A DNA stretch of 64,000 nt from Bolinopsis microptera. Its lineage: Eukaryota > Ctenophora > Tentaculata > Lobata > Bolinopsidae. Positions within the stretch are counted from its first letter, which is position 1; every line of letters starts with the position of its first letter. The stretch lies in NCBI RefSeq assembly GCF_026151205.1, contig NC_087074.1, positions 866,001-930,000 of the forward strand, in the 5' to 3' direction. Both the position numbers and the translations under genes were made by a program. Shown in pieces: positions 10,855 through 64,000 of this stretch. Under the pieces are notes generated by a model, which saw only the letters and a program-made list of their open reading frames with translations, did no database searches and was not told the DNA's origin.

Positions 10855-13800
10855 ATGTCTCGTCGGAAGAAGCGGAACAGTGCTAGCAAGTACATGGTAC
10901 AGTCGGATGAACCACCACCCTGCCCTCATGCTGAGAAATCCATAACTCCTAACAAGGTAAGAAAGGGCGTGTTCTTGAATTATGTGTTCTTGAATTATGT
11001 GTTCTTGAATTATGTGTTCTTGAATTATGTGTTCTTGAATTATGTGTTCTTGAATTATGTGTTCTTGAATTATGTGTTCTTGAATTATGTGTTCTTGAAT
11101 TATGTGTTCTTGAATTATGTGTTCTTGAATTATGTGTTCTTGAATTTAAGTGTTCTTGAATTATGTGTTCTTGAATTGTATTTCCTGGAATAGAATTGAT
11201 TTAGCGGATGTTGTACTTACTAATGGGAGAATGTTTATAATGTAACCAGTCACATTAGAATACCAGTTTAGCTAACAAATTGGTCAATGTAAGAGTTATT
11301 GACCTCTTGATCTCCTATCCCACCTTACGAATATTAAATCTGTATTTGTGTTAAAACGTTCCAGACTAAGAGAGTGACAGATGTATTTACACCTTTTGAG
11401 AGAAGATTTGTTGAAAGTTTCGATCCAGAGACCTTAATTTTTACTTACTTTACTGTAAGTTTTAAGAATTTATTTTATTATTTGGTCAAAACATATGTGG
11501 ATCGAACAGTGATCAACCGAGACCAAAAAGTTATTTATATTTTACCACAGCCAGGGAAATCGAGGCCTGGTTTTCCAAACCCAGGCTGAGGCAATTCCAT
11601 TATCCTGGTCAAATCATGGATGTAGTACAGTATCTCGCTGTACTAATGAACTTTCGGTCAATTATTTTCTAAAACCCGACCCGACTACTCCTTGCCTAGA
11701 ATCAGATTGCGTGAACATTTTCCATCTCATTATTGACTTTACTAATGTCTGTGCAACCTGTGAGCAATAATACCATAGCTGAGACTGCGTAATGGACTTT
11801 CCAAATGTGTCGCATTTTATTGACAGGAACTACCTATTAAGTAAAAGCATTACGTTCATTAAAGCTTATGGGATTTATTACTTGCATACTGCATAGTGGT
11901 ATAATTGATATTGAGAAGATAATGGTTGCTAGGTTACGTGTTATGGGCGAGGATTTAGGTGGTCACACTACTTAAATAACGATTAGTATTGTGAGCAAAC
12001 TGTGGTTAACAAACTCATATAGCAATTATTTGAGAGAGAGATATTTTGATATGTAATATGACATTTTTTCAGGTGAAGAACAATTTCCCCCACGCAGTAT
12101 TCGGACGATGTAGCGAATGTTCGATTAAAGAAAAGATCTACTTATGTTTGAAATGTGGCAAACAGTTCTGTACGACACACGGTGACAAGCACTTCGATCT
12201 CAACAACCACTCGCTAAACTTCGAGCTAGATACGGCTGTGGTGAGGTGCAGTAAATGTGCACGTGACCTTACCCTGCAGTCTCACTCGTCCATACTGCGG
12301 GTTTCCAACCTTATTGGGGACTTTTCTGAAGAAACAAAACGCCACAGCCGGTGTTGTTTCACCTAAAAAAGAACCAGTGGTAGTTGAACAAAAACACACA
12401 AATGGAACAGTGGATTCTACGAAGGATACTACAAGGGAGGCGGTACCCGAAGTCACCTTAACGGAACACCATGTTATAGGACTAAAAAATACGGGCGTTA
12501 TCTGTTTCTTTAATTCTGTGCTGCAGAACCTGGTGCAAACACCCATGTTGCGAGCTTGCATGAACTACACCAGTGATAATTACAAAGATACATTGGTCAG
12601 TAAAACGTATGGCACAGTACACATTAACGTTGCCAGTGGCACTGCTTCCAGCATGGTTACCAAGTACAAGTCCCTCTTGAAACTCCTGGATTTCAAGGAA
12701 AGGGGCAGTAAAGCCATCCACGCTTATCAGGTGAAAAGAAAATGTTATTTTGTATTACTTCAAACCTTGACTGGCGTTGTCACTCACTAACATTATCACA
12801 ATATTTCCAACCACTGCCGATTTAAGGCTCGTGTTTTGATGCATGAGTTTCAGTATTTATCGAATTTGGCAGTATTTCTTGTGAAGTGTGACTGACGCTT
12901 GTTAGGAAAAGATCCAGATGTGTTTACCACTGCCTGCATGTGACATTGGCAATAAATAATTTGAGCACGTGATTGTTGTAACGCGCTGCGACAAAATGAT
13001 AGCTGGCACACAAACGTGAGCGGTTACAAAGCCAACAATTTTTGTGCGCGCCGTACACATTGGACTGGATCGATCGAATGATCCATCGACTAATAATAGT
13101 TTTCCTGGTCAGCTGAATATCAGATTATCTACCTGGAAGCCGGAAGGAATTAAATATTTATTTCACACTGGATAGTATTGTAATAGCTTTAAGTTAACTG
13201 TCCATATTTCAGGTGTTTCAAGAGATGTGTTCATATAACGGGTGTCTCTCTGACGGACAGCAAGATGCCCAAGAGGCATTTCACGCTATTGTACACTCTA
13301 TGAGCAGTGAAGAATCAAAACGCAGAAAAAATGCAGTTTTGCAAACATTCGGAATCATCCGTGCCACGTATAAAGACTTGCCAAAAGAAAAGAGGAAAAA
13401 GATAACAGAGTTTGCGAATTTGGCAAGAAGTGGATCTTTTATTGACAGCCTATTCGGTGGCACGACCATCAACCAAATAACTTGCCTAACTTGTTCCAGA
13501 GTAACGAAAACTCTGGACCATTTTGTTGATTTATCAGTTCCTTTACCAAAGAAGGGAGAAACCAAGTCTCGTTCTAAACAGAAGAGCTCTGGAGACGATG
13601 GCCTCAGCAAGCATCAAAAGAAGAAACAGCAAAAAGAGAACCGGAAGAAGGGAAAGAAAGGAAGAGATAGAAAAGACAGCTCATGTCCAGCCCAACCTGA
13701 TTCCCCGCTTGATTTGTCGAATGGAAGTGCCGATCCCATGTCTCCGAATTCCTCCGTGAGTTGTCCGCCCAGTCCGCAGATCAATCCAATCCAATCACCG

Positions 13801-14940
13801 GAGCCCACTGAGCTATCTAATAACGTGAACGTAGCAAATGAAAAGCCACTGCAGGGAGCAGACAATTTCCCCTCGCCAAGGGTTTGGAGCGAGGACATCT
13901 GCACAGTGATGAACGGTGTAGACTCAGATACTGACTGCAATGCAGCCACTGTGGAGTCGGAAACAATAGCTGTCGAAGAGGTACATATTGAGTTTGATGA
14001 CGACGATGTGGCCGATATTTGTTTGGAATTACCTCCAGAAAATGGAGCTGATAAAGTAGAAAGTGGTGCAGGTGATACAGAAGGGAAACTCAGAGGGGGT
14101 TACAGTGCTTCGTGTGGCAGTGAGGATGAAAATGACGGAATGTTATTTTCGCTGTTCAACGAGGACAATGAAGAATCCAGTAACGGGACAAAATCGTCCG
14201 TCGAAAACCTGGCCACCCAGATGGGTGACCTAGACATGGGTAATGATACACTAGATATAGATGAGGCAGATTTTGGTACTGATACTCTTGATGCGTGTCT
14301 GGCTCAGTTCTGTCGAGAGGAGCTGCTCACCGGTGACAATCAGTTTAGTTGCGCTAACTGTGCTCGCCATTGTATTGATAATAATTCCCTCAATATTTCC
14401 TGTGCTCGTTCCAATGACTCTTCTATGTCGGATGACGAAAATTCGGATGATTCGGATTCCGAAGAAAAAATCAAGCCAGTGTTGAGAGATGCTAAATGTC
14501 GCTACTTTCTGAACACTTTGCCACCGATCTTGGTGATCCACCTGAAGCGTTTTACTCAAGACCACAAAGGGTTCTTGATTAAAGACCGTCGCCACATCAA
14601 CTATCCCCTTGTGTTGGATCTGGATAAGTTCATCATCAGTGGATCAGGGAACAAATACAAGCTGTTTGGGGTTGTCGACCATTCTGGAACCCTACACAGA
14701 GGCCATTACACCGCTTATGTTCGAAAAAGAGACACTAGCATGGACGAGAGCTTTAAAGATAAGTCAGTTCCACTGCCGGAACTTATAAATCTTCTGGGTA
14801 CGCTGAACGCTGAGAAAGAGAACGATTATGATAAATGGTATTTCTGTAATGACGAGAGAATTTCAGAAACAACTGTAAAAAGAGTTTTGAATGCTGATGC
14901 TTATTTGTTGTTTTATGAACGCTGTTTGCCATATTCATGA
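10855..14940 (+). CDS. ubiquitin carboxyl-terminal hydrolase USP16/USP45-like
   Basis: Coding exons: 10855-10956 (donor GTAAGA), 12073-12730 (acceptor TTTTTCAG, donor GTGAAA) and 13213-14940, all joined in phase 0. It encodes about 828 residues if one base is discounted, close to human USP16/45. Exons 1-2 encode a ZnF-UBP domain (CPH, CSEC, CLKCG and CSKC pairs plus H residues) that binds free ubiquitin C-termini. The USP catalytic Cys box is GLKNTGVICFFNSVLQNL. QQDAQEAFHAI follows, then finger CxxC pairs (CLTC and CANC). The catalytic His lies in HRGHYTAYVR, with WYFCNDERI near the end. A Lys-rich and acidic/Ser-rich low-complexity insert sits at about 14.1-14.3 kb and before it, as in USP16. 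The zinc-finger frame and the catalytic frame differ by one base at a T-run (12322-12325). The family is nuclear/cytosolic; USP16 removes ubiquitin from histone H2A. Confidence 0.93.
10969..11190 (+). repeat. 15-bp minisatellite in USP intron 1
   Basis: About 14 tandem copies of GTGTTCTTGAATTAT starting 13 bp after the exon-1 donor. The 15-bp period keeps a spurious open frame, which reads through from exon 1 as repeated VFLNY. A 16-bp variant unit lies near the end. Confidence 0.95.
11365..11454 (+). other. possible cassette exon of the USP16/45 gene
   Basis: This is an in-frame, stop-free 90-nt segment bounded by a GTTCCAG acceptor and a GTAAGT donor, phase 0 on both sides. Including it would add 30 residues (starting TKRVTDVF) between the first Cys/His pair and the rest of the ZnF-UBP. 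Homology argues that exon 1 normally joins 12073 directly. It may be alternative or fortuitous. Confidence 0.35.
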
Positions 14941-15278: not shown

Positions 15279-18200
15279 TCATGTCATTGTTTCTGATATT
15301 TTTTCCAGTGTAATGGAACTGTGATGACCATTTTGAGAGATGTCGTTATTTTCATACTTTTTATCGACATCCTTAGTTTTACAACCTTTTCTTAGCGACC
15401 TCTTTAGGGTCTTAAGATTTCGGGCACTGGAAGACACGAAAGAGTGGTCAAGTTGTTCCTTCATTTCGACAACAGGTAAAACATGTTGACCACGGACTTT
15501 ACGTTTTACCCAGTTGAACAGATCCACCAAGATATTGCTGTATATAATGGGGTTCACGCAGCTGTTAATGGGGAGGAGAATTATGGAGCTCACTTTGTAG
15601 TATCTTGTGGCATCAATCTTATCCAAGGTGTGAAGAAGACAAATCACCCCAAACGGAACCCAACTCAGCACATTGCTCGTAACCATCAGAGTGATTTTGG
15701 TTTGCAGTTGGGTACTCCTCGAGTCCTTGACAGTGGAAGTCTTGTTGGAGGAACCTTTGGCCGTCATGATAACAGAGATATATGTTGTGGAGATGATGGT
15801 GAAGCAGATGAGATTAAGGGATAAGATTGCAAGGCTGAATATCCGCTGTGGGTCATCGGGGGACACGAAATATTTAAACAAACAAACACCGTCATTTCCG
15901 TAGAATTTAAGAGATTTACCCTCGACTTCTAACCCTTCCGAGAAAACTTCCTCCGCCATGAACATCCTAACCTGTTTCCAGGAGTAATAGGATTGCAGTT
16001 CATACAAACTGTCATTGTTCTTATGGGCAGCAGAGAATATCTTGTACTGGTTGATGAAATCTTTGTGGACATGGAGATTAGCAACCTTGTTGAACAGAGT
16101 ATTAGACTGATAATACAGTCCGTTAGTAAAGTAGTCCTCCGTATAGTCCATTATAGGGATAACAGCGATGAATAGGGAGAGGAGAGATAGCGACACAGCT
16201 ATACAGCTCATGTATACCTTGTGTTGTGACGTCACTTTAGCTCTACCTCCCATACTCTTCAGCGTAAACACCCTGTACACACTGAGACACAGCATGGTGA
16301 AGATGGAGAGTTGAGTGCCGAAGGTGGAGAGAACCCCTAATAAAGTGCAGTGTCCTGAGGTTACCCACTCGTACTTGCCCGGGCAGAATCCCTTTCTGTA
16401 AACCTGATCTACTACGAACACGTTCAGGAGGTATATCCCCACACAGAAGTCCCCCAGGGATATGAGGAGGACCAGGGACAGGTTGATGAATTGAGCCCGG
16501 GAATGGAGGATCATGTTGTCCCGGATTATCCCTGCTACCATGTAGATGTTTACCAGGATGGAGGCTGCCCCGATTAGGAAGGTACAGAGTTTAAGGAATG
16601 CGCCGTTTATTATTTCCTGAGATCCGCATTCCTCGTTGCATTCGTCGGTGTGGTTGTCGTTGTTGCAGTCGTGGGTACCGTCACATACTTGTCCTTTTCT
16701 TATGTACCGGGGTGTACCTGGTCAGTTTATTGTATTTATCTAAAATAATTTTAAAATTTAAATTTGTTCAGCTAAGGCTGGTACGAAAAAGTAACAGAAG
16801 GAAAAGGTGCACCCTTAACGATATAAACGTCAAACAACACGCAAGCCGCAAATTGATTACTATTAGGTAAGCAGTTACGTTTCAATTTCATGATTCATTC
16901 GTCAGTTTAAAAAAATTCCCGCGAGTTTTTGCTCTAGATAATTTTATTTGTGCACAAACTATCGTTCCGAGCTGTGCTTTCTTAGTCAACCTCATCCATG
17001 CTATTTCGTATTGGTATTTAACATCAATTGCTGAGAGACGGGATGGGGGAGGGGCACTAATACTCACCAGATCCACAAGGAAAGTTATTGTGACAGCTAT
17101 CCTCATCACTGCTGTCCCCACAGTCGTCTACAAGGTCACAAACTTTGCTCTTATCCACACAGTTCGCGTTGTCACACACGAATATTGTCTCGTGGTACTT
17201 GTCATCGTACCTTGAGGTGATTAAAGTTAATTTGACGGTTTTGTAGAAGTAAAGGGTTTTGTAGAAGTAAAGGGAAACAAGTTTACAGAAAATGAAAATT
17301 TGAAATTTCAATTTGAAAAGGCAATCTCAATGTGAACAAACTAATATAATTATTATTTGGTATTCAGTAGTCTTGAAGGTAGTCTCACCTCAGCAGTTTA
17401 TGGACCTTATGGTCCAGTTTTCCCGGAACGTGGACCATGTTACTGCCAATACAAGCCGTATCTGAGACACGTTGCAGCGGACAAGTCTCCCCAGAGTCAC
17501 AGAACCCCTGACAGAGCAGGAGGATGTACTCCTCCCCGAACACCTGGTCACATGACCGTGTGGAGATGTTGTCGTGTTGGAGACTGACGGGGAGGTGGAT
17601 GGTGGTGATGGTCGCCAGGGCTGTGAGCGGTGGGATTGTGACTGTGGTACAGTTGGAGCGGTCAGGTAGTCCGGGTACACAGGGGGGAATGTACTGGGTT
17701 GAGTTGATGGAGAGGATTGAGTTCTGGGTTGTAGCAGAGGTACCTTTAGTTATCTCACACAGCACTTTCTCAGAACCTCCACAACTCTCGTCGTAGTTAC
17801 AGAGCTGTGCCATGCTCACGTACGTACTGAACTTATCCGGACACTTGAATCCCTGGGTACAGTTGTACTCTGGAGTGTTAGGATAACACTTCTGTTCCGT
17901 CCCACTCCCACAGATCTGCCACTCTTCTGTATCCTCGTCCATCCCATTCAAACAATCCACCTCACCGTCACACAGCCACGCTACTGGTAGAGGGAGTTCG
18001 CGGGTTGTGTTGCTGATGAGCCGTCTCTGACAGACCTTCTCTGAGAGTGTGAGGCAGATGGAGCGGCACTCGTCCGGGCCACCCTCACAGTCGTCGTGTC
18101 CGTCACAGAGCTGGTGTTTGTGAACCTGGTACTTGTGATATTGAGTCGGTTGTCAAAGATATCGATATAATCTACCATTCAAGCTATCAGTTTGTATATT

Positions 18201-21200
18201 AATCTACTTGTATTCAGATATTCGTGCTGATCACTTGAAAGGTTTTATAATTGCAATAGCAAGCTCTACAGAGTATACCAGTAACGTTACTCTACAGAGT
18301 ATACCAGTAACGTTACTCTACAGAGTATACCAGAGTATACCAGAGTATACCAGTATACTCCAGTAACGTTACCCACCTGCTAATAAACTAACCTGACAAG
18401 TGTCTGATATCTCATGACACCACTCATCAGACCCATCAGCACAGAGGACCTTGTTGTTGCAGACCCACTGTCTCCTGAGTCTAGTGTTCACATGTTCCGC
18501 GTCCTCTCCCACCCTCACCGTACACACGAACACGTCCTCCCTGGTGCAGTTCATCTGGTCTATGTAACCCTCACAGTACCCGTCCAGGAACGTCATGTTC
18601 GGGAACTCGCATCTCTGCTTGTTCTCTATCGGAACTATCTCTCCGCTCCCCCCGAATTTAGCACAATTCATGGATATATCATTGAGGGAATCACAGTTCT
18701 TCTCATCCTCTACTTGACCCTCTGAGTCTGCATCACACTGGGGTTTGTCATCACAGACATGTCTCTTATCTACAAAGGAGGTACCGTTGTGGGTGTTGTC
18801 TTTATAGTCTGAGATGTGACAGTAGGCTCCGGTTGAGTATTTACAGTTGAACTCATCTTCCCCGTCAATACAATCAGCCTGCCTGAAGAGGGTTGTGATG
18901 GAGACTGACTGTCAAGTTATGTTACCTTCTCAACGCTCTACTCCTTTAATTAAGCTCGTTCCTTCTAACTTTCTGCTTGTCTAACAATAGCAGCTAAGCA
19001 AATAAAACTAAATATACAGAGTGTGAATGAACATTTTGAAAATGTCGTACTGCCGTCTCCTTGACCGAAGTTTCGCGGTTTTAGCTGAATTTTTGGCCAG
19101 TGACCAATCAGTAAGGTCGGTCAGAGTAGCTCAAGCCAGGTACTGGAAGCAGTATATCCGGAGAAAACTTTGACGGAATGAACATTTTGAAAATGTCCTA
19201 CCGGTAGCACATTTTCAGATTTCAGCTTTCCGCGACCCAAATTTTACTGTTTTGACTGAATTTTTCTTGAATGATCATCTAGCAATAAGGTCACTGAGGA
19301 TGGCACAAGACACGATTGAGGTACTGAAAGTTCTATTTCCAAAGAAAGCTTTGATAAATAGAAAGTCATCAGAATATGTATATTAGGATGCAGTGAAACT
19401 ATCGGACTACGATGCAATTTATGGGGACTTGCCACCCCATGGCAGCATTAAAATATATTGACTCTGTTACATCGTTTCCTGTTATAAATATTATATATCT
19501 TTAAAAAACAATTATATATACATGTAATACATATCTTTTTTTAAAGAGCAAATATACGAACCCATCACAAATGTATAGTTGGGGTAGTCTGCCACTCTGA
19601 GCCTCCTTGTCAGTAGGTCCCATTTTACACTCAAACACTACCTCGCTCTCACATCCCATCTCGTCTTCCTTGTTCTCACAGTCGAAATACCTGCGGGGTT
19701 TTCAGGTTGTGGCTAGCCTGTGTCAAACTGTAAGCTGTTACACGAGGGTTTGATGTGTGAATCTGAGTGGTGCAGAAATTTGATCGTTATTATCAGTCAT
19801 GAGTTTAACTTCAATATACCGTAAAATTATATGCTAGAAAGAACGTACCCGTCGCAGAGATATATAGAATCGAGAGCAACTATAGGGTGTGCCTCATCAT
19901 GACGGTAGTTACAGATGAGCGTATCACATTTTCTATCTGATACCCCAACTCCTGGACATCCACAGCCCTGGTTGGAGAGAGAGAGAGAGGTGTTAGGAGA
20001 GCTCCCAAATCTGGGTTGTGAGATTGCTTATTTTCAATTTTGTGTGTTACAATTCTGAAAAGTGCTGTCATTTCAAATTTGAATATTCAATTAGCCACAT
20101 GGTGCCCGGGTTCAATTAAGGGCAGGAAATAACAAAAAAATGGACCAAATTTTGACGAGACGTACTTTCAACCAACAACAAGACACTCCGTCAAATAATA
20201 CCTGGTAATTGGAAGCAGTCTCCGGGCAAAAGTTGCTAAAAACGCACATCTCCCCACCGAAGAAGTCCCTCTTCTGTCTTGTGTAAATAACACTGCTGTT
20301 CCAACATTTGAATACCTGTTCAATTGGAAACATAATATCAGGTATTTACATTGAGAGTGTCCTCTCCGACCCCAGTACTTAGTAATCAGATGTTGGAGAC
20401 AGGGATTACTAGTGCCACTTTGTATTGAACATTGAAACAGGAGATTATTTTGGAATATTTCATATTTTTCTAATTAGGATGTTAGAGCACTCAAATAGTA
20501 ATAGAAGAATAAAGAATGTTGTGAAACCTGGTGGATGTTGTTATCAGAGGTAATATCGTGTAGATTGCAAGTTGTCCTGTAGTACTGGTCTATAATACTG
20601 TTATCACAATCCAGCTCTGAGTTTAGTCCTGCACATTTTAATAACGTCTTCTTTTAGATCCATTTTTATATGTTGACGAACAATTGAAGAGTTTAAAACG
20701 ATAAATCCAGCTTTATACTCAATTACAAAATAAAACTTGAGCAATATTCCAGTAAGTAAGTTATAACTTACTTATTTGGTTATATTATATAAAAGTTAAA
20801 ACTTACTTCCACAAACGATAAGGAGTTGAGATTTGTTCTCCTCCCCGCAGGATATCGGACTATCTAACCGGTTTGTAACGCAGTCAGCCAGAGTGGAGGA
20901 GGCGTAATCACACCTCATGTTATCCCAGTACGATCTCTGTGGTTTGTGGTTTAGAGGTATGTCGTTGACAGATTAAGCGTATTTTATCCATACTTCTCCC
21001 ATAGTACTATTGAATGTAGACTGTGGAATACACTCCTTAAAAACTGATATCTGACAAGGGGCAGATAGGGCCGCTACAACAAACAAACCTGTACTGAAAC
21101 ACGTGAAGTGTGGTGTGGTACCAGAATACCAGTGTTACCCAGTCCCAGGTCCCCACACACCACCCGGGCCACCTCATCTGTCAGGTTCCTGCCACACACC

Positions 21201-21560: not shown

Positions 21561-23657
21561 AGCAACTAAACTATAGTTGGTTATATAGCAACTGAACTAT
21601 AGTTGGTTATATAGCAACTAAACTATAGTTGGTTATATAGCACCTAAACTATAGTTGGTTATATATCACCTAAACTATAGTCGGTTATATAGCAACTAAA
21701 CTATAGTCGGTTATATAGCAACTAAACTATAGTCGGTCATATAGCAACTAAACTATAGTTGGTTATATAGCAACTAAACTATAGTCGGTTATATAGCAAC
21801 TAAACTATAGTTGGTTATATAGCAACTAAACTATAGTTGGTTATATAGCACCTAAACTATAGTCGGTTATATAGCAACTAAACTATAGTCGGTTATATAG
21901 CAACTAAACTATAGTCGGTCATATAGCAACTAAACTATAGTTGGTTATATAGCAACTAAACTATAGTCGGTTATATAGCAACTAAACTATAGTCGGTCAT
22001 ATAGCAACTAAACTATAGTTGGTTATATAGCAACTAAACTATAGTCGGTTATATAGCAACTAAACTATAGTCGGTCATATAGCAACTAAACTATAGTTGG
22101 TTATATAGCAACTAAACTATAGTTGGTTATATAGCAACTAAACTATAGTTCTAGTTGGTTATATAGCAACTAAACTATAGTTGGTTATATAGCAACTAAA
22201 CTATAGTTGGTTATATAGCAACTAAACTATAGTCGGTTATATAGCAACTAAACTATAGTTGGTTATATAGCACCTAAACTATAGTCGGTTATATAGCAAC
22301 TAAACTATAGTCGGTTATATAGCAACTAAACTATAGTCGGTCATATAGCAACTAAACTATAGTTGGTTATATAGCAACTAAACTATAGTCGGTTATATAG
22401 CAACTAAACTATAGTCGGTCATATAGCAACTAAACTATAGTTGGTTATATAGCAACTAAACTATAGTCGGTTATATAGCAACTAAACTATAGTCGGTCAT
22501 ATAGCAACTAAACTATAGTTGGTTATATAGCAACTAAACTATAGTTGGTTATATAGCAACTAAACTATAGTTCTAGTTGGTTATATAGCAACTAAACTAT
22601 AGTTGGTTATATAGCAACTAAACTATAGTTGGTTATATAGCAACTAAACTATAGTCGGTTATATAGCAACTAAACTATAGTTGGTTATATAGCAACTAAA
22701 CTATAGTTGGTTATATAGCAACTAAACTATAGTTGGTTATATAGCAACTAAACTATAGTTGGTTATATAGCAACTAAACTATAGTTGGTTATATAGCAAC
22801 TAAACTAAAGTCGGTTATATAGCAACTAAACTATAGTTGGTTATATAGCAACTAAACTATAGTTGGTTATATACTATATAGCAACTAAACTATAGTTGGT
22901 TATATAGCAACTAAACTATAGTTGGTTATATAGCAACTAAACTATAGTTGGTTATATAGCAACTAAACTATAGTTGGTTATATAGCAACTAAACTATAGT
23001 TGGTTATATAGCAACTAAACTATAGTTGGTTATATAGCAACTAAACTTTAGTTGGTTATATAGCAACTAAACTATAGTCGGTTATATAGCAACTAAACTA
23101 TAGTCGGTTATATAGCAACTAAACTATAGTCGGTTATATAGCAACTAAACTATAGTCGGTTATATAGCAACTAAACTATAGTTGGTTATATAGCAACTAA
23201 ACTATAGTTGGTTATATAGCAACTAAACTATAGTTGGTTATATAGCAACTAAACTATAGTCGGTTATATAGCAACTAAACTATAGTCGGTTATATAGCAA
23301 CTAAACTATAGTTGGTTATATAGCAACTAAACTATAGTTGGTTATATAGCAACTAAACTATAGTTGGTTATATAGCAACTAAACTATAGTTGGTTATATA
23401 GCAACTAAACTATAGTTGGTTATATAGCAACTAAACTATAGTCGGTTATATAGCAACTAAACTATAGTCGGTTATATAGCAACTAAACTATAGTTGGTTA
23501 TATAGCAACTAAACTATAGTTGGTTATATAGCAACTAAACTATAGTTGGTTATATAGCAACTAAACTATAGTTGGTTATATAGCAACTAAACTATAGTCG
23601 GTTATATAGCAACTAAACTATAGTCGGTTATATAGCAACTAAACTATAGTCGGTTAT
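21561..23657. repeat. 26-bp minisatellite (about 80 copies) at the receptor 5' end
   Basis: The tandem unit is ACTATAGTTGGTTATATAGC plus AACTAA, with T/C variants (AGTTGG, AGTCGG, GTCAT) arranged in blocks. A unit with an extra CTAGTT recurs at about 22141 and 22563, giving a 422-bp higher-order period (16 units plus 6 bp). Each unit holds the 10-bp palindrome AACTATAGTT and a TATATAG box. The array begins about 14 bp upstream of the receptor start codon on the minus strand, so it occupies the 5' UTR/promoter. Confidence 0.97.
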
Positions 23658-29010: not shown

Positions 29011-29309
<299 letters not shown>

Positions 29310-32700: not shown

Positions 32701-35700
32701 TGCTGTCTGATGAAGTAAACACTTTTTGCCCTGGAATTGTTCGAAACAAGGACCGGCAAATTGTATTTTGCACCCTTGCTCATGATCCCAAGGGACTGCC
32801 AATTCATTTGCTGCAGCACCCTGCCTCAGTGCACCTCTCCATTCATGCCCCCAAACAAACGAGTGTTATTACACCTGCAAGGGTGAACACAAGCATTGCA
32901 CCTCGACTGTTTGGGTAACTAATCCTAGGATTAATATGATATACTGGTGAGAGCGGCTAATACCGTCTTATTTCTGATATTCTTACGCCTTTCATCTGAC
33001 GTGTTGTTATGGGGCACGTTACTATTAACAGGGTACAGATGGGTTCGTGTTATTGTCGTCATAACTTTATTAAGATAAGTTAATCAAGGTAACTAAGCGA
33101 TGGAGCTGACCCGGCCCTTATGTTCATCAGCTAGGGTTTGTTGATGAAAATGGGAAAGATCTCTGATGTATGGGCTCTTTTCATATTAATAAGGTCGATA
33201 TATTGGCATTTTCTGTGAAAATATAAAAATAGCTTGTGGAAACAATGTCAAATATTATCGCACGTGACGAATGGTGATTGGTGGTATCGCTGCTTTGAAT
33301 TCTGAAGAATCCTACCATAACAAATATCTAGAGGGAAAACTAAAACTCGTCTTCTAGAAACTAGATAGACAACAAATAGAAACGGGAAAAACTCCCCGCC
33401 TAATTGTATCTAAAACACTCTTCAATGAAACGTTTCATGTTTCCACACTGTTTCATGTTGTCACATCTACTTTTTCTAAAGTTAAACTGACTAACCGACT
33501 TAACTTTAAGTCTTAAGTACACGTTTAGATTACGTCAATATTTTCTACAATGTAATAGATGAGAACCAAAATGAGACGTTCCCCTCGTATACATTAGTTT
33601 AATAGACGAGTTTGTTTTAAAATGTGGTAAAGGAGAACTAAAATGAGACGTTCCCCACAGAGTGTTACAGAGTGTGATATACGGAGCACCAGAGACCGGT
33701 GATCACACCCACGAGCATGTCTTCCTAGGAGAGTACGCCACTAACGTTCTGAATATGAAGCCAGCGGAACTCGAGGACATGCTTTACTGGCTGGTTTGTT
33801 GCTTTATTTTTTATTAATTTTACTTTTGTAGATCTGGTTCTTCCTGTTACCACTTTGTTGCTTTAAAAAATAAAATTTTTTTCGTTGCTGGGGAACGTTC
33901 ACCGAAATTTCCAGAAAAAAAACACAAATTACAGGTTGAACAGAGAATAGACCGCGACAATGATATGAAGATAAACCTAGACGAACTGAAACACTGGATG
34001 CAGCATATCTACCACCACGATCTGGATAACAACATCATGCATGCGTTCTTCGAGTGCAACAAAAAGAAGGTATGTGCGTAAATGGTGTCAAACATTTTCG
34101 GTTGGGGATCGCTGATGGCTAGCTCATCACCAGTCAACATGACAATATGTGACCCATGTGACCCGTGTGAGCCGCAAAAACGTCGATATTCTGTTCTAGG
34201 GAAAGCTCATTAATAACGGCCTGGCTGCAAGATTGCGGTGTCCCAATCACGGAATGGCAAAGAAATCAGTCGGAGATGACTGCTGAATCGTGAATACGAC
34301 TGCTGACTGTGAATTCTTTGAACTAGCGAACAATACTCCGTATTTATTAAATATAAGTGTTTAAAGCCTCGAGAACAAAACCACTGATGCACTCTTCACT
34401 CTTTGCTAGAATAAAAACATTGCGCGATCGTGAGGATTAATTCGAGAAAAGATAAACACAACCAAATTTTATTATATTTTTGTAACGGAGCTCGGTGACA
34501 CACGTTCAAGAAGACCTGGATACTTTTAGTTTTTATCAACGTAATAATATATAAAACATACGTTTTATCAATGTAAGGTTTTGGTCGTTCGGGAACATAT
34601 TTTCCATTGCACTTTTCAGCACATCCATTTTCAGGCTTATTGATTAAACTGGACATAACATTACGCCAGAATCTTACTATATAACGAGACGATCTGTTGC
34701 CATTTTACTGACACCACGGCATCGACTTTAACACGACTTTCCGCAAAAAACGGTGTGAGATATACAATTGAACCTGTTTTAGCTCGATCAAATTCTTTAA
34801 CAGCATTTTTATCAGTATGAAGAAATACAAAATTGGCCAAGGAATATTGGCCCAAATTTAAACCCCCAAGTAGTACCATTACCAAAATCGCGAAATAAAT
34901 AATTAGAGTATTCTCTTGACACCATTTTAGAGTTTGACGGGTTCCTGCTAATGTGTGAAATTACTAGGGAATACTAGGAATGCTGCAAGGTTTACAGGTT
35001 TACAACAAATAGATCTATAATACCATACGCCTTTTACGCAATAAATCAAAACGAAGAGTATTCTTGAAATTTATGCGGAGGTAGTTACTAGTTACTAACC
35101 AAGTTGTTAGACTAAAATTCTACCTTAGAATAGACCAACGCTGTTGGATTATATTTTATACTTAAACAATAAACATCCATTGAAAGTGGGTGTGTTGCCC
35201 GTTATGTTCTATTCTATATCTCGCCATCCCGGTTCTGGAATCCCAGCCCCGGTTTTAGTCCCTACACTTTTTTCCAGTCCCTCTTCTGTTCCCAGTCCTG
35301 ATCGGTTGTTAAGCTTAACCTACCCGTGAAAACAAGGTGTGAAGTGGCACTATTACATACATTTAGGTCAATAAAATGAATTGGTTAAAGCTTATATCGG
35401 GAGAAACTTTCAACAATCGGCTCGACAATTATGCTAAACTTATGTTGCGAATAAGTGAGTGACTGAGTGAAGACATCCCCTGCATTTGATAAAATGGTAA
35501 TATGATTTCTCTTTCTCCACCACCGCCATAATGTGATAACTACGAAGTAGCCATTAATCTATCAAGCACGTGAACATGCATATATATTTGATTGGAAAAT
35601 GTTCAACCTCACTTCCGACTTGGGTAAATCAGTGGTAACAACTTATCAAGTGTACCACATGTGGTACAGTACGGGAGAGTACCAGTACTCCAGTAAGGTG

Positions 35701-38700
35701 ACAAGTTTGTGTGATACGAGAGAGCGTGCCCCCAGTATATGAGAATAACATAGAGCAATATTATCTCCTCCTACAAAGATATTATTACTCAGCTCCGGAC
35801 CTGGCTCCTAATGAATTGACATGTTCGGGGGGCTGGTGAGATAAAGGCAATTTATCTTATCAGATATAGGCATAGCCTATAATATATAGTTGGATGGCCG
35901 ATGATCCTGCGAAGGATCATCGGCAGTCATCTTCGATTCAGAATATATGGTTTACATTTTTCGCTATCCAATGATATAGCTCCATATATATATAATAGCT
36001 CCATTCTGCTGATCTTGATCAATTACGAATGGTTGGCAGTCTCCTGACAAGATCCCATGCGATGTGCAAGGGCTCGCGGATGACCTTGCTCTCTTAGCCA
36101 CGTTGGAGGGACCGGCCACAAGTGGTAACAAAGACTTTGATCATCTGAGAGAGATGACACCGAAAAGTCTTGGAGTCATTATGAAGTTATGAATTGGTGC
36201 GCTGATAACGGGCTGAAGCTGAGGACACTTAAGACACTTTCCGTAATTTTCACATGGAGGAGGAAATGGGAATTTTCAGAACTTCTATCAGTGAACGGAA
36301 TAGAAATAGAGATGAAAAGTTCCACTAAGACGATCCTGATTAATCAAAAAATGACAAATGTCCTGATAATTAAAGGGATAAACTATGACCTAAACTGGGC
36401 TCCTGTTAAAATGAAGTCAGTTTATCGTTGAAATACCGCTTTCAGTATAATTAATAAACAGGCCCGGGACTCTACGGCTTGAGACTTTAATAAACACGAA
36501 CACCGAGCGGATATTTAAACTATATGTCAACTAATTTGCACCTGAGATCATATTTATATGACCATGAAAATGACTATGAAATAAAACCATGAAAATGTCA
36601 GGTATAGTAAGTGGAACGTACCACTAAAATGTATTTCACGACAGTTGATAACCCTTTCCTTGCAGGACCACGACATAACCTTTAAGGAGTACAGATCTTG
36701 TTTAGCTAGAAAGCCGGGCACTGCCACTCCTACTGAGAAAACTGAAAACAGACTGGTAGCCAGATGGAGACAGGCTGACCAAGACGGAGATAGTAGACTA
36801 TCATTGTAAGTATTTCTAATACTGTGTACCAAGACGGAGATAGTAGACTATCATTGTAAGTATTTCTAATACTGTGTACCAAGACGGAGATAGTAGACTA
36901 TCATTGTAAGTATTTCTAATACTGTGTACCAAGACGGAGATAGTAGACTATCATTGTAAGTATTTTTAATACTGTGTACCAAGACGGAGATAGTAGACTA
37001 TCATTGTAAGTATTTTTAATACTGTGTACCAAGACGGAGATAGTAGACTATCATTGTAAGTATTTCTAATACTGTGTACCAAGACGGAGATAGTAGACTA
37101 TCATTGTAAGTATTTTTAATACTGTGTACCAAGACGGAGATAGTAGACTATCATTGTAAGTATTTTTAATACTGTGTACCAAGACGGAGATAGTAGACTA
37201 TCATTGTAAGTATTTTTACTACTGTAGTACGGAGATAGTAGACTATCATTGTAAGTATTTTTATTACTGTAGTACGGAGATAGTAGACTATCATTGTAAG
37301 TATTTTTAATACTGTGTACCAAGACGGAGATAGTAGACTATCATTGTAAGTATTTTTAATACTGTGTACCAAGACGGAGATAGTAGACTATCATTGTAAG
37401 TATTTCTAATACTGTATACCAAGACGGAGATAGTAGACTATCATTGTAAGTATTTTTAATACTGTGTACCAAGACGGGGATAGTAGACTATCATTGTAAG
37501 TATTTTTAATACTGTGTACCAAGACGGAGATAGTAGACTATCATTGTAAGTATTTTTACTACTGTAGTACGGAGATAGTAGACTATCATTGTAAGTATTT
37601 TTACTACTGTAGTACGGAGATAGTAGACTATCATTGTAAGTATTTTTAATACTGTGTACCAAGACGGAGATAGTAGACTATCATTGTAAGTATTTTTAAT
37701 ACTGTGTACCAAGACGGAGATAGTAGACTATCATTGTAAGTATTTTTAATACTATGTACCAAGACGGAGATAGTAGACTATCATTGTAAGTATTTTTAAT
37801 ACTGTGTACCAAGACGGAGATAGTAGATTATCATTGTAAGTATTTTTAATACTGTGTACCAAGACGGAGATAGTAGACTATCATTGTAAGTATTTTTAAT
37901 ACTGTGTACCAAGACGGAGATAGTAGACTATCATTGTAAGTATTTTTACTACTGTAGTACGGAGATAGTAGACTATCATTGTAAGTATTTTTACTACTGT
38001 AGTACGGAGATAGTAGACTATCATTGTAAGTATTTTTAATACTGTGTACCAAGACGGAGATAGTAGACTATCATGTAAGTATTTTTAATACTGTGTACCA
38101 AGACGGAGATAGTAGACTATCATTTTAAGTCTTTTTAATACTGTGTACCAAGACGGAGATAGTAGACTATCATTGTAAGTATTTTTAATACTGTGTACCA
38201 AGACGGAGATAGTAGACTATCATTGTAAGTATTTTTTATACTGTGTACCATTTTGTCTCTTTAAAAATGTTAATTGCTTCCATGAGTCTGAGAGACCTAT
38301 TCGATAAAACCCCAAAAGATACTACACTAAAGAAAATCATGAAGCAAAAACCAAAGCTTTAGCGAGGGATTCTATTTAAGATTTTGTGGTCTTTAGTCTT
38401 AAGAAATGCTATGAGATTAAATTCTATAAGATTAATATAATGTTTAAGAAACTACACCGAAGAAGGCACTACTCATTTGTTTTTTAGGAACGAGTTTGGG
38501 CCGTTCTATGCGCCTGACGAGATGCATCACCAACATATGCATGGCCTGCTGGTTGATGAGTACATTGACGATAGAGACGCTGATGGGGACTATATCCTGT
38601 CATTCGAGGAGTACATCTGTGAGTACTCACTACAATACTAGAGTATCACTCCAATCTGTGAGTACTCACTACAATACTAGAGTAGCACTCCAATCTGTGA

Positions 38701-41121
38701 GTACTCACTACAATACTAGATTATTATATGAGATATATACTACTTACTAGCACTTTAGTAGCACTCCAATCTGTGTATTAGTGCTTTTATAACTTATACA
38801 ATTGTTGAACGTGTAAAATTATGGATGTTATTCTGGGTGGAATGCTGAATGAGATACAAGAAAGGTACCTCCGATCATTAACAAATTAATATTTCTCAGC
38901 TCAAAGTGTCGAGTTGAAGGATCTAAACACGGGAGACGACTGGGAGCTTAGTTTAAATGAGCGCTTTTCTAAAATCGACGAAAATAAGGTACAACAAACG
39001 ACAACGAAGTTCATGTGATAGTGCAGACCTATTTGCTATTTTGTATCTGTTATGATTCTGCGTAACTATGGTAACTAGTAGTGTAACTATGGTAACTAGT
39101 AGTGTAACTATGGTAACTTGTGACCTATTTGCTATTTTGTATCTGTTATGATTCTGCCTAGGCAGATCGACCTAGGCAGGTAGGCAGGATGATTCTGCCA
39201 TGAAGTGCAGCACGGAATAGAATGGCTCTGACCAGCGGCGGGTTCCTTTAGAAGTAGAAGATATTAATGAAAGGAAAGAACCATTATGGGACCTTGATCT
39301 GTATACACAATGGTACCAGACATGAAACCATAAAATAATGATCCCAGCGAAACCATGATTATTATTGAACTGTTATTATTATTGAACACGGCCCTGATAT
39401 TTGATTCTCCTTGCGCTTCATAATTATAAGAACACCACATGATCCAGAGCTGTGGTGATGAGAGTTCATATCACGGGGGTGGTGGATAATGAAATTTAGA
39501 ACAGTGAGATTAATGGTGGTATTATTTCAAACCATCCCTTTCATAATATTTGATTGCCTGGCTGAAGGATATGTTTATTGTTGTCAATATCAAGTCCAGT
39601 AAGGTTTGCAGTAAAATCACAATTATACGGGATCCTTGGCGAATGCAGCATTGAACAAGTGAATCAGTGTTTTGGAGGAGGAGTTAACCAATGTTTGGAG
39701 GAGGAGTTAACCAATGTTTGGAGGAGGAGTTAACCAATGTTTGGAGGAGGAGTTAACCAATGTTTGGAAGAGGAGTTAACCAATGTTTGGAGGAGGAGTT
39801 AACCAATGTTTGGAGGAGGAGTTAACCAATGTTTGGAGGAGGAGTTAACCAATGTTTGGAGGAGGAGTTAACCGATGTTTTGGAGGAGGAGTTAACCAAT
39901 GTTTGGAGGAGGAGTTAACCAATGTTTGAAGGAGGAGTTAACCAATGTTTGGAGGAGGAGTTAACCAATGTTTGGAGAAGGAGTTAACCAATGTTTGGAG
40001 GAGGAGTTAACCAATGTTTGGAGGGGGAGTTAACCAATGTTTGGAGGAGGAGTTAACCAATGTTTTGGGGAAGGAGTTAACCAATGTTTGGAGGAGGAAT
40101 TAACCAATGTTTGGAGAAGGAGTTAACCAATGTTTGGAGGAGGAGTTAACCAATGTTTGGAGGAGGAGTTAACCAATGTTTTGGAGGAGGAGTTAACCAA
40201 TGTTTGGAGGAGGAGTTAACCAATGTTTGGAGGAGGAGTTAACCAATGTTTGGAGGAGGAGTTAACCAATGTTTTGGAGGAGGAGTTAACCGATGTTTTG
40301 GAGGAGGAGTTAACCAATGTTTGGAGGAGGAATTAACCAATGTTTGGAGAAGGAGTTAACCAATGTTTGGAGGAGGAGTTAACCAATGTTTGGAGGAGGA
40401 GTTAACCAATGTTTGGAGGAGGAGTTAACCAATGTTTTGGGGAAGGAGTTAACCAATGTTTGGAGGAGGAGTTAACCAATGTTTGGAGGAGGAGTTAACC
40501 AATGTTTGGAGGAGGAGTTAACCAATGTTTGGAGGAGGAGTTAACCAATGTTTTGGAGGAGGCGTTAACCGATGTTTTGGAGGAGGAGTTAACCAATGTT
40601 TGGAGGAGGAGTTAACCAATGTTTGGAGGAGGATTTAACCAATGTTTGGAGGAGGAGTTAACTATGGTAACTAGTGGCGTAACTATGGTAACTAGTAGCG
40701 TAACTATGGTAACTAGTAGTGTAACTTTATTTCAGGACAGTAAGCTGTCTCACCCGGAAGTAGAGAACTACTTGTTCCCACCACATTACGATTACGATCC
40801 TGCTCACGAGGAAGCTGTACATATCATGAGTGAGCATATTATCTGTTAACATTGATGCTGTCAACTCTACTATATTGTGTAGTATGACCATAACTGGCCA
40901 TATTTTAATCCATCAACGCTCAACGCTCAATGGACATGTACTTCCTGATCAATTCAGCTCAAAATAAGACAACTAAAACCTTAAAATCCACAGCGGAGAC
41001 AGACGATGACAAAGATAACAAGATCTCCCACTACGAGATGATGAAACACCTGCGAGTATTCGTGGGGAGCCAAGTTTTACAGCAAGGCAAACTCCTGCTG
41101 AGATCTAGAGATGAGCTGTGA
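29708..41121 (+). CDS. reticulocalbin/calumenin-like CREC protein, ER calcium binder
   Basis: Eight exons, all GT-AG and in phase: 29708-29745, 33661-33793, 33935-34069, 36666-36805, 38488-38618, 38900-38988, 40736-40829 and 40994-41121. The product is 295 residues, close to the family's about 315. It starts with a signal peptide (MFNKVFACLSIFGVLQS) built across exons 1-2. Six EF-hand loops follow: DRDNDMKINLDE, NKKKDHDITFKE (first Asp replaced by Asn), DQDGDSRLSLNE, DADGDYILSFEE, DENKDSKLSHPE and DDDKDNKISHYE. The C-terminus has the family signature FVGSQV and ends RDEL, an HDEL/KDEL-type ER retrieval signal, so it acts as an ER-lumen calcium-binding chaperone-like protein. Introns cut loops 2 and 5 at the same point (after residue 4, phase 0), as expected from internal duplication. 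Introns 4-6 are packed with minisatellites, two of which copy splice donors. Confidence 0.92.
29746..33660 (+). other. reticulocalbin intron 1
   Basis: No gene inside. It holds a 13-15-bp degenerate repeat of GGTTTAACAAAAT type (about 29965-30035), GTGATGTGA repeats (30355-30405), an AT run (31735-31765), the CACGTG repeat listed separately, and a duplicated 23-bp block AAAATGAGACGTTCCCC (about 33568-33584 and 33640-33656) that ends at the exon-2 acceptor. Confidence 0.6.
32290..32340. promoter_or_regulatory. clustered CACGTG/CACGTGAC palindromes
   Basis: Two copies of GTGGTGCACGTGACAGTCAC separated by GT place four CACGT(G) E-box-like sites in 50 bp of intron 1. Regulatory use is unproven. 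Confidence 0.35.
34070..36665 (+). other. reticulocalbin intron 3
   Basis: About 2.6 kb. Apart from the LINE fragment at its 3' part, I see no gene; small open frames on either strand lack any family signature. Confidence 0.5.
36055..36345 (+). pseudogene. non-LTR retrotransposon RT fragment in intron 3
   Basis: Shortly after 36070 it reads LADDLALLATLEGP, the catalytic ADD box of a LINE RT. It continues after a stop and frame change with WCADNGLKLRTLKTLSVIF and VNGIEIEMKSSTKTI, typical of the segment after the ADD box. Truncated on both sides. Confidence 0.75.
36779..38249 (+). repeat. 50-bp minisatellite copying the exon 4 end and its splice donor
   Basis: About 30 tandem copies. Each contains the last 26 coding bases of exon 4 (AAGACGGAGATAGTAGACTA, then TCATT) followed by GTAAGTATTTTTAATACTGT. 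Units of 40 bp (GTAGTACGGAGATAG) occur in pairs at about 37230, 37570 and 37960, giving a higher-order period of about 340-390 bp. Only the first copy leads to a coding join: read-through meets TAA in the donor itself. Confidence 0.95.
38615..38705 (+). repeat. 39-bp tandem copies of the exon 5 splice donor
   Basis: ATCTGTGAGTACTCACTACA recurs at 38615, 38654 and 38693, with a degenerate fourth ATCTGTGT at 38769. The first is the exon 5/intron 5 junction (ATCT/GTGAGT). Confidence 0.92.
39060..39120. repeat. 21-bp repeat, left copy set, intron 6
   Basis: Three units of GTAACTATGGTAACTAGTAG. A matching set (40655-40725) lies on the far side of the 23-bp minisatellite. Confidence 0.9.
39668..40660. 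repeat. 23-bp minisatellite in intron 6
   Basis: About 43 tandem copies of TTTGGAGGAGGAGTTAACCAATG; some units have TTTT (24 bp) or AAG variants. It is followed by the 21-bp GTAACTATGGTAACTAGTAG repeat right up to the exon-7 acceptor region. Confidence 0.97.
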
Positions 41122-43940: not shown

Positions 43941-46888
43941 TAGTACAGGGAAATCCGTCTGAAAAAATCGATCTGCTGACACACGAAGCTTACAAAGGAT
44001 TTTTGACGTTTTTGAGTCTTAATAGGTGTCCTTTATGGCTGACCAACTTTTCCAAACTTTTCCACGTGGCTTAAGGCCACTTTTTGCCACTTTACCACTT
44101 TTTACCACCTTTCTTATTTGTCGAATATCTTTAGTTGTGAACATCGTAAAAGGTTGCGAATCAATCGAGTGTGTTCATATTATCAGGAAGAAAAACTTTT
44201 GTTCTAACAATTTTTACGTCAGATAATAATTTAATTGGATAATTATCAATTAACCAATTAGCAAAATTCTAAAAATTTTTTATTGGCTAAAAATGATCGG
44301 AATAGCTTAAAACACGGAAAAAAGTAGTTTTTAGAAAAAATTTGAAAATTTTTCACTTACATTTTTTTTTCGAGACTTGGAAAAATTTCGAAAATTCAAA
44401 ATATTTTTTTCCGCCAAAAGTGACCAAATTGCATGAAACGCGGAGAAAAATGATTTTCAAAAAAAACTTAGTCAATTTTTCGTTTCAAGAATACTTAAAT
44501 CACCAATATTTGTAGTTGGAGTTCAGTAAATCTCGGCAGATTTTAGTAATAATCAGGAATTACTAACTCTAAGTGGAAAGGTCTGAAACTGAAAAACGTT
44601 AAGTTTAACCATACGATCGCGATATAAGAGTTTCATAACTAATTACAATACAGCCTTATCGATTTTCACAGAAACTGCACCAATGGCACAGTCAAGATCG
44701 AAACGATAGCCTGCTGTACTGTCATTTTATTGATTTCAATGATGAATCAGTGGGGTTAAGAATATCACATTTGTAATAAATAAAACCTCTCTGTACCGTC
44801 AATTGTGCTATCTAAACCGGCCTACCTGTATTACCAGACCTCTTCTTTTCCTCAACAATCAAACCGAGTTGTTCATATCGCATTTGGTGGGTGATGTAAA
44901 CTAAGTAGTAATACATATCGAGCTATATTCAATCACAATACGACACAGTACGTGTATAAATATATTATATGGCTCTTAATGAGGTTTATGAAACGCTTTA
45001 TACCGTGAGAAACCCGGTATAGAGAGGTTTTACAGTTTATCACGAAAACGTCTACTTGGTCTCATGGCTCATTTACAGTTCGAAGAAGGGCAAGAACAGA
45101 TCAGGGAAACTGAGGAACAGCCAGGTCCAGGAAGCAAGTGTAAATACACCTTCCAACATCTACTGTGACTGTTTTGTATTGTACTGCATACCGCTTCATT
45201 TGCGGGATACCTCAAATCACCCCCATATATCAGGGTCGGCTAAAAGTAAAATCAACAAGGGTAACATACGGGAAAGGGTAAGATTTAGATACGAGTACAG
45301 TGTCGGGCAAGGGGTAGTAAAGAACCGGTAATAATTAATTCAGTGAAATGTTCCACGAGAGTCAGGATATTTTGGAAATTGATAATAGAGACAGATCCTG
45401 ATCAGGAAGGATTGTTAATGTTATTGAGGATGTTGATTTGAAATCCGGACGTCGTGAAGTAAAAATACAGGTTCTTCCCGCAGGATATTCGGGGCCCATG
45501 ATGATCAGCTCGGGATTAATGTGGGACAGATCGAAGACTGACAACTGAACCCAATTGAACCTAGTTCCCACTAACCAATCAGCTTAATTGGTTAGGGTTA
45601 GGGTTAGGGTTAGGGTTAGGGTTAGGGTTAGGGTTAATCTAAATGTCTAAATTGAGTTCAGTTGTCCGGTAGCCCGCTCTTGCGAGTTGACATTCTAAGT
45701 TTTCTGGTCTTTTCTTGCCTTCTTTGAGCTGTCAAAGAGCCATGAGACCAACTAGACATTTTCGTGATAAACTGTAAAACCTCTCCATATCGGGCCTCTC
45801 ACGGGAGAAACGAGAAGTGTACGGTATAGAACGTTTCATATACCTCATTAAGGGCCATAATATAATATACACGTGTTGCATTGTGTCGTATTGTGATTGA
45901 AAATAGCTCGATATGTATTACTACTTAGTTTACATCACCCACCAAATGCGATATGAACAACTCGGTTTGATTGTTGAGGAAAAGAAGAGGTCTGGTAATA
46001 CAGGTAGGCCGGTTTAGATAGCACAATTGACGGTACAGAGAGGTTTTATTTATTACAAATGTGATATTCTTAACCCCACTGATTCATCATTGAAATCAAT
46101 AAAATGACAGTACAGCAGGCTATCGTTTCGATCTTGACTGTGCCATTGGTGCAGTTTCTGTGAAAATCGATAAGGCTGTATTGTAATTAGTTATGAAACT
46201 CTTATATCGCGATCGTATGGTTAAACTTAACGTTTTTCAGTTTCAGACCTTTCCACTTAGAGTTAGTAATTCCTGATTATTACTAAAATCTGCCGAGATT
46301 TACTGAACTCCAACTACAAATATTGGTGATTTAAGTATTCTTGAAACGAAAAATTGACTAAGTTTTTTTTGAAAATCATTTTTCTCCGCGTTTCATGCAA
46401 TTTGGTCACTTTTGGCGGAAAAAAATATTTTGAATTTTCGAAATTTTTCCAAGTCTCGAAAAAAAAATGTAAGTGAAAAATTTTCAAATTTTTTCTAAAA
46501 ACTACTTTTTTCCGTGTTTTAAGCTATTCCGATCATTTTTAGCCAATAAAAAATTTTTAGAATTTTGCTAATTGGTTAATTGATAATTATCCAATTAAAT
46601 TATTATCTGACGTAAAAATTGTTAGAACAAAAGTTTTTCTTCCTGATAATATAAACACACTCGATTGATTCGCAACCTTTTACGATGTTCACAACTAAAG
46701 ATATTCGACAAATAAGAAAGGTGGTAAAAAGTGGTAAAGTGGCAAAAAGTGGCCTTAAGCCACGTGGAAAAGTTTGGAAAAGTTGGTTAGCCATAAAGGA
46801 CACCTATTAGGACTCAAAAACGTCAAAAATCCTTTGTAAGCTTCGTGTGTCAGCAGATCGATTTTTTCAGACGGATTTCCCTGTACTA
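43941..46888. mobile_element. 2.95-kb fold-back element with about 1.18-kb inverted arms and a TTAGGG core
   Basis: The arms 43941-45115 and about 45700-46888 are highly similar inverted copies. The outer ends are TAGTACAGGGAAATC / GATTTCCCTGTACTA, flanked by TTA at 43938-43940 and 46889-46891, a 3-bp duplication of the kind made by PIF/Harbinger transposases (TWA). The interior (about 585 bp) encodes no recognisable transposase and carries (TTAGGG)n. The conserved small open frames in both arms overlap poly-A/T-rich sequence and match no known family. Non-autonomous. Confidence 0.8.
45591..45636 (+). repeat. interstitial telomere-type (TTAGGG)n
   Basis: About 7.5 perfect hexamers. Flanking sequences ACAACTGAACCCAATT (about 45540) and AATTGAGTTCAGTTGT (about 45650) are inverted copies, so the array sits in the loop of its own hairpin inside the larger fold-back element. 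Confidence 0.95.

Positions 46889-62655: not shown

Positions 62656-64000
<1,345 letters not shown>

Follow-up and report, generated by a model that had tools for sequence, protein, structure and literature searches.

How is an exon joined to the next when its 3' end, splice donor included, is repeated in tandem about thirty times? This question is raised by exon 4 of a reticulocalbin-like gene in the window analysed here (the whole stretch of 64,000 nucleotides, C3:866001-930000). A preliminary description of this DNA had claimed a roughly 30-fold amplification of the exon 4 end and its donor, and had read it either as a splicing hazard or as a regulatory device of decoy donors. The array is probably a minisatellite of the kind called mirage, which would be spliced from its first donor, with the remainder lying in the intron as inert sequence without an evident job.

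The host gene and its array

Seven exons of the gene join as a single open frame of 279 residues, although exon 1, the signal peptide exon, was not found. Three stretches of the product match the EF-hand pair family of Pfam (EF-hand_7, PF13499, 3.7e-18). RDEL precedes the stop both in this gene (copy A) and in a second copy described below (copy B), and is presumably an ER retention signal. A PDB search with the product gave weak matches, nearly all of them calmodulins or calmodulin fusions among the best 60 of 73, and no reticulocalbin or CREC protein appears by name among these 60. The putative assignment to the reticulocalbin/calumenin (CREC) type is therefore based on the arrangement of the EF-hands, on the RDEL terminus and on a resemblance to the human reticulocalbin and calumenin sequences. 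With exon 4 joined from its first donor to position 38488, the product reads ADQDGDSRLSLNEFGPF; this is a standard EF-hand loop of 12 residues, divided between L and N. The EF-hand 3 loop across the exon 4-exon 5 junction is DQDGDSRLSLNE, and its closing Glu is supplied by exon 5. The earlier claim of a reticulocalbin gene with the exon 4 boundary inside the EF-hand 3 loop is upheld. The features of the gene and its repeats are as follows.

33671..33793, plus strand: exon 2 of the reticulocalbin-like gene; start placed by the frame and the acceptor TTACAG, acceptor and donor kept in copy B
33935..34069, plus strand: exon 3, with the first EF-hand-like loop; from translation and comparison with copy B
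36666..36805, plus strand: exon 4, with its end inside the EF-hand 3 loop; the final 28 bases supply the exonic portion of the repeat unit
36778..38250, plus strand: boundary-spanning 50-bp minisatellite of 30 units, 29 of them with GTAAGTAT
36806..36811, plus strand: first donor GTAAGT, the sole frame-keeping one among 29 live donors
38488..38618, plus strand: exon 5, completing the EF-hand 3 loop; from translation and comparison with copy B
38615..38724, plus strand: second boundary-spanning array, at the exon 5 donor, with 2.8 copies of a 39-bp unit (ATCT|GTGAGT...); from TRF, also in copy B
38900..38988, plus strand: exon 6; from translation and comparison with copy B
39671..40662, plus strand: 23-bp minisatellite of about 43 copies in intron 6; from TRF
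40736..40829, plus strand: exon 7; from translation and comparison with copy B
40994..41121, plus strand: exon 8, with the C-terminal RDEL and the stop; from translation and comparison with copy B

TRF places the exon 4 array at 36778-38250 with a period of 50, 30.1 copies and 95% matches, and cutting at the exon core likewise yields 30 units, so the 30-fold amplification is borne out; the bounds given earlier (36779..38249) capture the array, except that it starts one base before them. The first unit consists of the final 28 coding bases of exon 4, within the EF-hand 3 loop, and 22 bases of intron 4 including GTAAGT, exactly as had been described. The 29 spacings between units are 22 of 50 bp, six of 45 bp and one of 49 bp, and TRF finds an additional higher-order period of 340 bp; the claimed 50 bp is thus correct as a period but does not fit every unit. 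The 45-bp variants occur as neighbouring pairs (units 9-10, 16-17 and 24-25), which points to block duplication. The most frequent unit form is exact in 13 units. GTAAGTAT is retained in 29 of the 30, and unit 28 has lost the GT, so that the roughly 30 near-identical donors claimed are right as copies, with 29 of them live and one dead. GTAAGT occurs 29 times on the plus strand of the 1.47-kb array, as against 14 times in the other 62.5 kb of the window, and the array itself exceeds chance expectation. A short inverted repeat within the unit, GATAG-TAGA-CTATC, forms a hairpin when folding is computed.

A second copy and the local repeat load

A DNA query was run on the 264.65-Mb assembly (232 contigs), and the best candidates were scored; among these, one other place was hit, from C3:1092441 on, which belongs to copy B, 190 kb away. 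In copy B none of the seven exons has suffered damage, nor has any of their splice sites. Exon 4 differs between the copies at one of 140 bases, and the whole coding sequence at 26 of 840 nucleotides (21 synonymous, 5 non-synonymous), giving a dS of 0.142, a dN of 0.0075 and a dN/dS of 0.053; the coding sequence of both copies is under strong purifying selection. The array of copy B has 11 donors, arranged as five units, one unit split by an insert and five further units, and all 11 keep GTAAGT, while a twelfth GTAAGT sits inside the insert. This insert (C3:1092854-1093538, 685 bp) has an 8-bp target repeat and inverted ends as judged by eye, and looks like a transposon, hAT-like by eye. Since the array is found in both copies, it predates their split, and its length has changed since then, 30 units in copy A against 11 donors in copy B being an almost threefold difference; the unit variants are specific to each copy. 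The array is real, variable in length and compatible with a gene under selection.

Copy B belongs to a longer match. The segment from C3:1074030 matches that from C3:885119 in order, at about 84-99% in pieces with many indels, and was followed continuously to C3:984384 versus 1143281 and by sampling beyond. C3:1154000-1163999 shares matching pieces (about 82-89%) with 999706-1017090 and also has a 7-kb inverted match (90%) to 1038814-1045693, and C3:1180000 matches 1027731-1029515, the segment match ending at 1181752. Neither C3:1215000-1224999 nor C3:1235000-1244999 has a match of at least 250 bases to the 278 kb of DNA examined here. C3:885119 to about 1029515 and C3:1074030 to about 1181752 form an apparent segmental duplication of more than 100 kb, ordered where sampled and about 82-99% identical. 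Intron 6 is 4,008 bp long in copy B versus 1,747 in copy A, and the 23-bp minisatellite unit was not found in intron 6 of copy B. The two segments may be haplotypes assembled in succession instead of paralogues. This, together with the proneness of tandem arrays to assembly error, speaks for an assembly artefact or a pseudogene, in which the array or a gene copy would not be a real working locus, but copy B carries a separate array with other unit variants, the contig is 21.3 Mb long, and no stop, frameshift or splice-site loss is present in the seven exons of either copy; such an explanation is extremely unlikely.

Tandem repeats with a period of at least 10 cover 11.2% of the 278 kb (10.5% without the donor arrays), and two of the 13 known exon boundaries of the gene lie inside arrays, with 1.46 expected (P = 0.44), because of which the placement of an array on an exon end is unremarkable in this DNA. 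Of 48 TRF rows with a period of 20-130 and 2.5 copies or more in the 278 kb, seven have GTAAGT, GTGAGT, GTATGT or GTAAGA in the consensus unit, and every one of the seven belongs to the end of exon 4 or exon 5 in one copy or the other; a donor motif is therefore not a general trait of the local minisatellites. Elsewhere in the window, a 26-bp minisatellite of about 80 copies (21561-23657) is one among many long arrays, and there are a perfect (CT)n of 576 bp (62658-63233), an (AG)n run of 293 bp (29015-29307) and an interstitial telomere-like GGTTAG repeat of 7.8 copies (45590-45636). Among the other genes of the window, the minus strand at 15282-18911 holds a 7TM receptor frame (PF00001, 15282-16721) and, upstream of it on that strand, cysteine-rich frames that are LDLa-like by eye; a Pfam scan of one of these (17388-18152) gave no family. 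A ubiquitin hydrolase gene (PF00443) lies beside the receptor frame on the plus strand at 12245-14937.

Choice among near-identical donors

When each of the 29 live donors is joined in turn to exon 5, the frame stays complete with the first, and all the others, 28 in number, run into a stop at codon 134 (counted from the frame found, without exon 1), a TAA directly after DGDSRLSL. The earlier statement that any donor but the first brings in an immediate TAA thus holds for 28 of 28 later live donors. Because the join of exon 4 to exon 5 restores both the EF loop and the frame, the sequence on its own provides strong evidence that the first donor would be the working one.

The donors themselves offer little reason for such a choice. 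Twenty-eight of the 29 are identical over 11 bases, the remaining one differing by one base right before the GT, and these 28 therefore share the same predicted U1 pairing (-7.3 kcal/mol, compared with -4.5 to -7.9 for five other donors of the gene). Local RNA structure was considered as the cause and set aside, since folding gives the first donor no advantage: its unpaired probability is 0.009, and the other 28 average 0.021. With equal U1 pairing and no advantage in folding, nothing local explains why the first donor should win. Position would presumably decide, in that the first donor closes an exon of 140 nt, and the later ones close longer exons that contain a stop. Against this, competition experiments often favour the donor nearest the acceptor, and here the last donor would leave an intron of 263 nt versus 1682 nt from the first. 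In the splice-site competition literature, as far as its accessible portions go (including PMC5585400), no usable statement on identical donors was found.

Two further candidates were rejected. Recursive splicing within the array is at odds with the bases before the donors, which are ATT in 28 cases and CAT in one, not AG, and the units are therefore not AG|GT recursive sites; as to possible micro-exons that would start from AG sites within the unit, inspection by eye shows a T run about 15 bases before CCAAG and none before the other AG sites. A non-coding RNA was sought with Rfam, which gave no match in the window at gathering scores.

The splicing hazard claimed earlier gained no positive support, and the intact coding sequence of both copies, with its low dN/dS, argues against a serious hazard and lends regular splicing indirect support. 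A milder one would let the later donors be used in part of the transcripts, which would run into the TAA and be destroyed, so that output would fall with the number of units and selection would limit the damage. The likeness of 28 live donors over 11 bases, the shorter introns left by later ones, the stop common to all of them and the absence of a local advantage for the first donor speak for such a leak, but the same coding evidence weighs against it, as do the amphioxus mirages, which the available parts of two reports describe as not disturbing splicing (PMC3087553; PMC3902484). A mild hazard is accordingly possible but unlikely.

The other earlier reading, a regulatory decoy or NMD device, likewise found no positive support. 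Here the array would bind U1 snRNP or set the share of transcripts sent to decay, with the number of units tuning expression. Donor arrays occur at two consecutive donors of the gene in both copies, read-through of the exon 5 donor meets an in-frame stop (YICEYSLQY-stop, by eye), and GTAAGT is kept in 29 of 30 donors in copy A and in 11 of 11 in copy B. A recent expansion, however, is expected to leave every part of the unit nearly identical. Substitutions were counted in 23 of the 30 units of copy A (the seven omitted being the six of 45 bp and the one of 49 bp) and in nine of the 11 of copy B (omitting the 49-bp first unit and the insert-split unit). They fall in the donor 8-mer in two of 12 cases in copy A and one of 10 in copy B. 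This is no less than the 8-mer would receive in proportion to its length within the unit, although 22 substitutions in all make a weak test. At this low power, the count gives no sign of selection on the decoy donors. The almost threefold difference in unit number, the transposon-like insert in one array and the abundance of tandem arrays in this DNA also speak against a device, which is very unlikely. It is just as improbable that donor number sets the share of reticulocalbin transcripts sent to NMD, with the smaller exon 5 array acting alike.

Origin of the array and known systems

The expanded segment is bounded as follows.

36778..36781, plus strand: ACCA, left-hand copy in a 4-bp direct repeat, at the array edge
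38247..38250, plus strand: ACCA, right member of the 4-bp direct repeat, at the array edge

ACCA stands at both edges of the array in both copies, and the ancestral segment therefore had a 4-bp direct repeat at its two ends, which is a usual substrate for slippage or unequal exchange. The starting segment would have been the 46 bases between two ACCA copies, which happened to cover the last part of exon 4 and the first part of intron 4, and the array edges suggest that it was duplicated through one of these two routes. The duplicates then grew and shrank as tandem repeats do, as is shown by 30 units versus 11 donors and the 45-bp pairs. Most likely the spliceosome uses the first donor for the join to exon 5, since this closes the normal 140-nt exon, and would remove all later units as intron, as the protein and the amphioxus analogy suggest; rare use of a later donor would lead through the TAA to nonsense-mediated decay. 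The expansion of the repeat was probably neutral and is tolerated by splicing, and the difference between 30 units and 11 donors, the insert in copy B and the match to amphioxus favour such a tolerated minisatellite.

If splicing relies on only the first of 29 near-identical live donors, nature has set up an experiment here on site choice among equals. Since that donor is favoured neither by its sequence nor by U1 pairing or predicted local folding, the deciding factor would have to be position within the exon, and the existence of one copy with 30 units and another with 11 donors allows this choice to be measured directly. A further gene, possibly from another animal group, also joins a little-noticed class, that of boundary minisatellites, which have been proposed as a source of new introns.

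A literature search by structure terms found no paper on the array of this gene. Intron gain through tandem duplication is reportedly the subject of a model by Rogers and of work by Zhuo et al. from 2007. It likewise starts from local duplication of a segment with splice signals; here, in contrast, no new intron bounded by copies and no change of frame seem to be needed, because the usual join of exon 4 to exon 5 already yields a complete EF loop and an unbroken frame. In human segmentally duplicated genes, as the accessible part of one report describes, tandem repeats at exon boundaries vary between paralogues (PMC2812944). These are also boundary minisatellites that vary between recent paralogues, and they are retained or spliced out and can form new introns (PMC2812944), whereas the present repeat carries a donor and, save for its first unit, lies downstream of the normal exon end.

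The closest systems, to which the listed literature on donor duplications adds none closer, are the mirages, minisatellite-like repeats over exon-intron boundaries that were named in amphioxus Adh3 and are also reported, in the portion of the paper available to us, for the globins BflGb6 and BflGb9 and other genes (PMC3087553). BflGb6 has six and three units of 150-160 bp in two haplotypes, and the Adh3 data together with globin RT-PCR suggest regular splicing despite the mirages, although the copied splice signals could in principle serve as cryptic sites according to the amphioxus authors (PMC3087553). PGBD5 and troponin C are further cases (PMC3902484), and the cases called mirages in the accessible parts of the two papers have cephalochordate hosts (PMC3087553; PMC3902484). 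As to the present host, one iGluR domain examined here matches animal delta- and kainate-type receptors, which are named in the top rows among the best 60 of 380. The units of amphioxus mirages are homogenised within a cluster, and either the 5' or the 3' boundary may be duplicated (PMC3087553; PMC3902484). The present unit similarly spans an exon-intron boundary and copies a splice signal, its first copy being the presumed true boundary, and it shows the same length instability and turnover, between haplotypes in the mirages and as 30 units versus 11 donors here. It differs from the amphioxus cases described there in the gene concerned, in having 30 units at the donor side, in the second donor array in the same gene, and in an assembly (264.65 Mb) that is smaller than Branchiostoma genomes. 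The array, known here from its DNA, has the anatomical features of a mirage. It appears to be a known kind of structure, set apart by how many units it has and by the presence of a second donor array in the gene.
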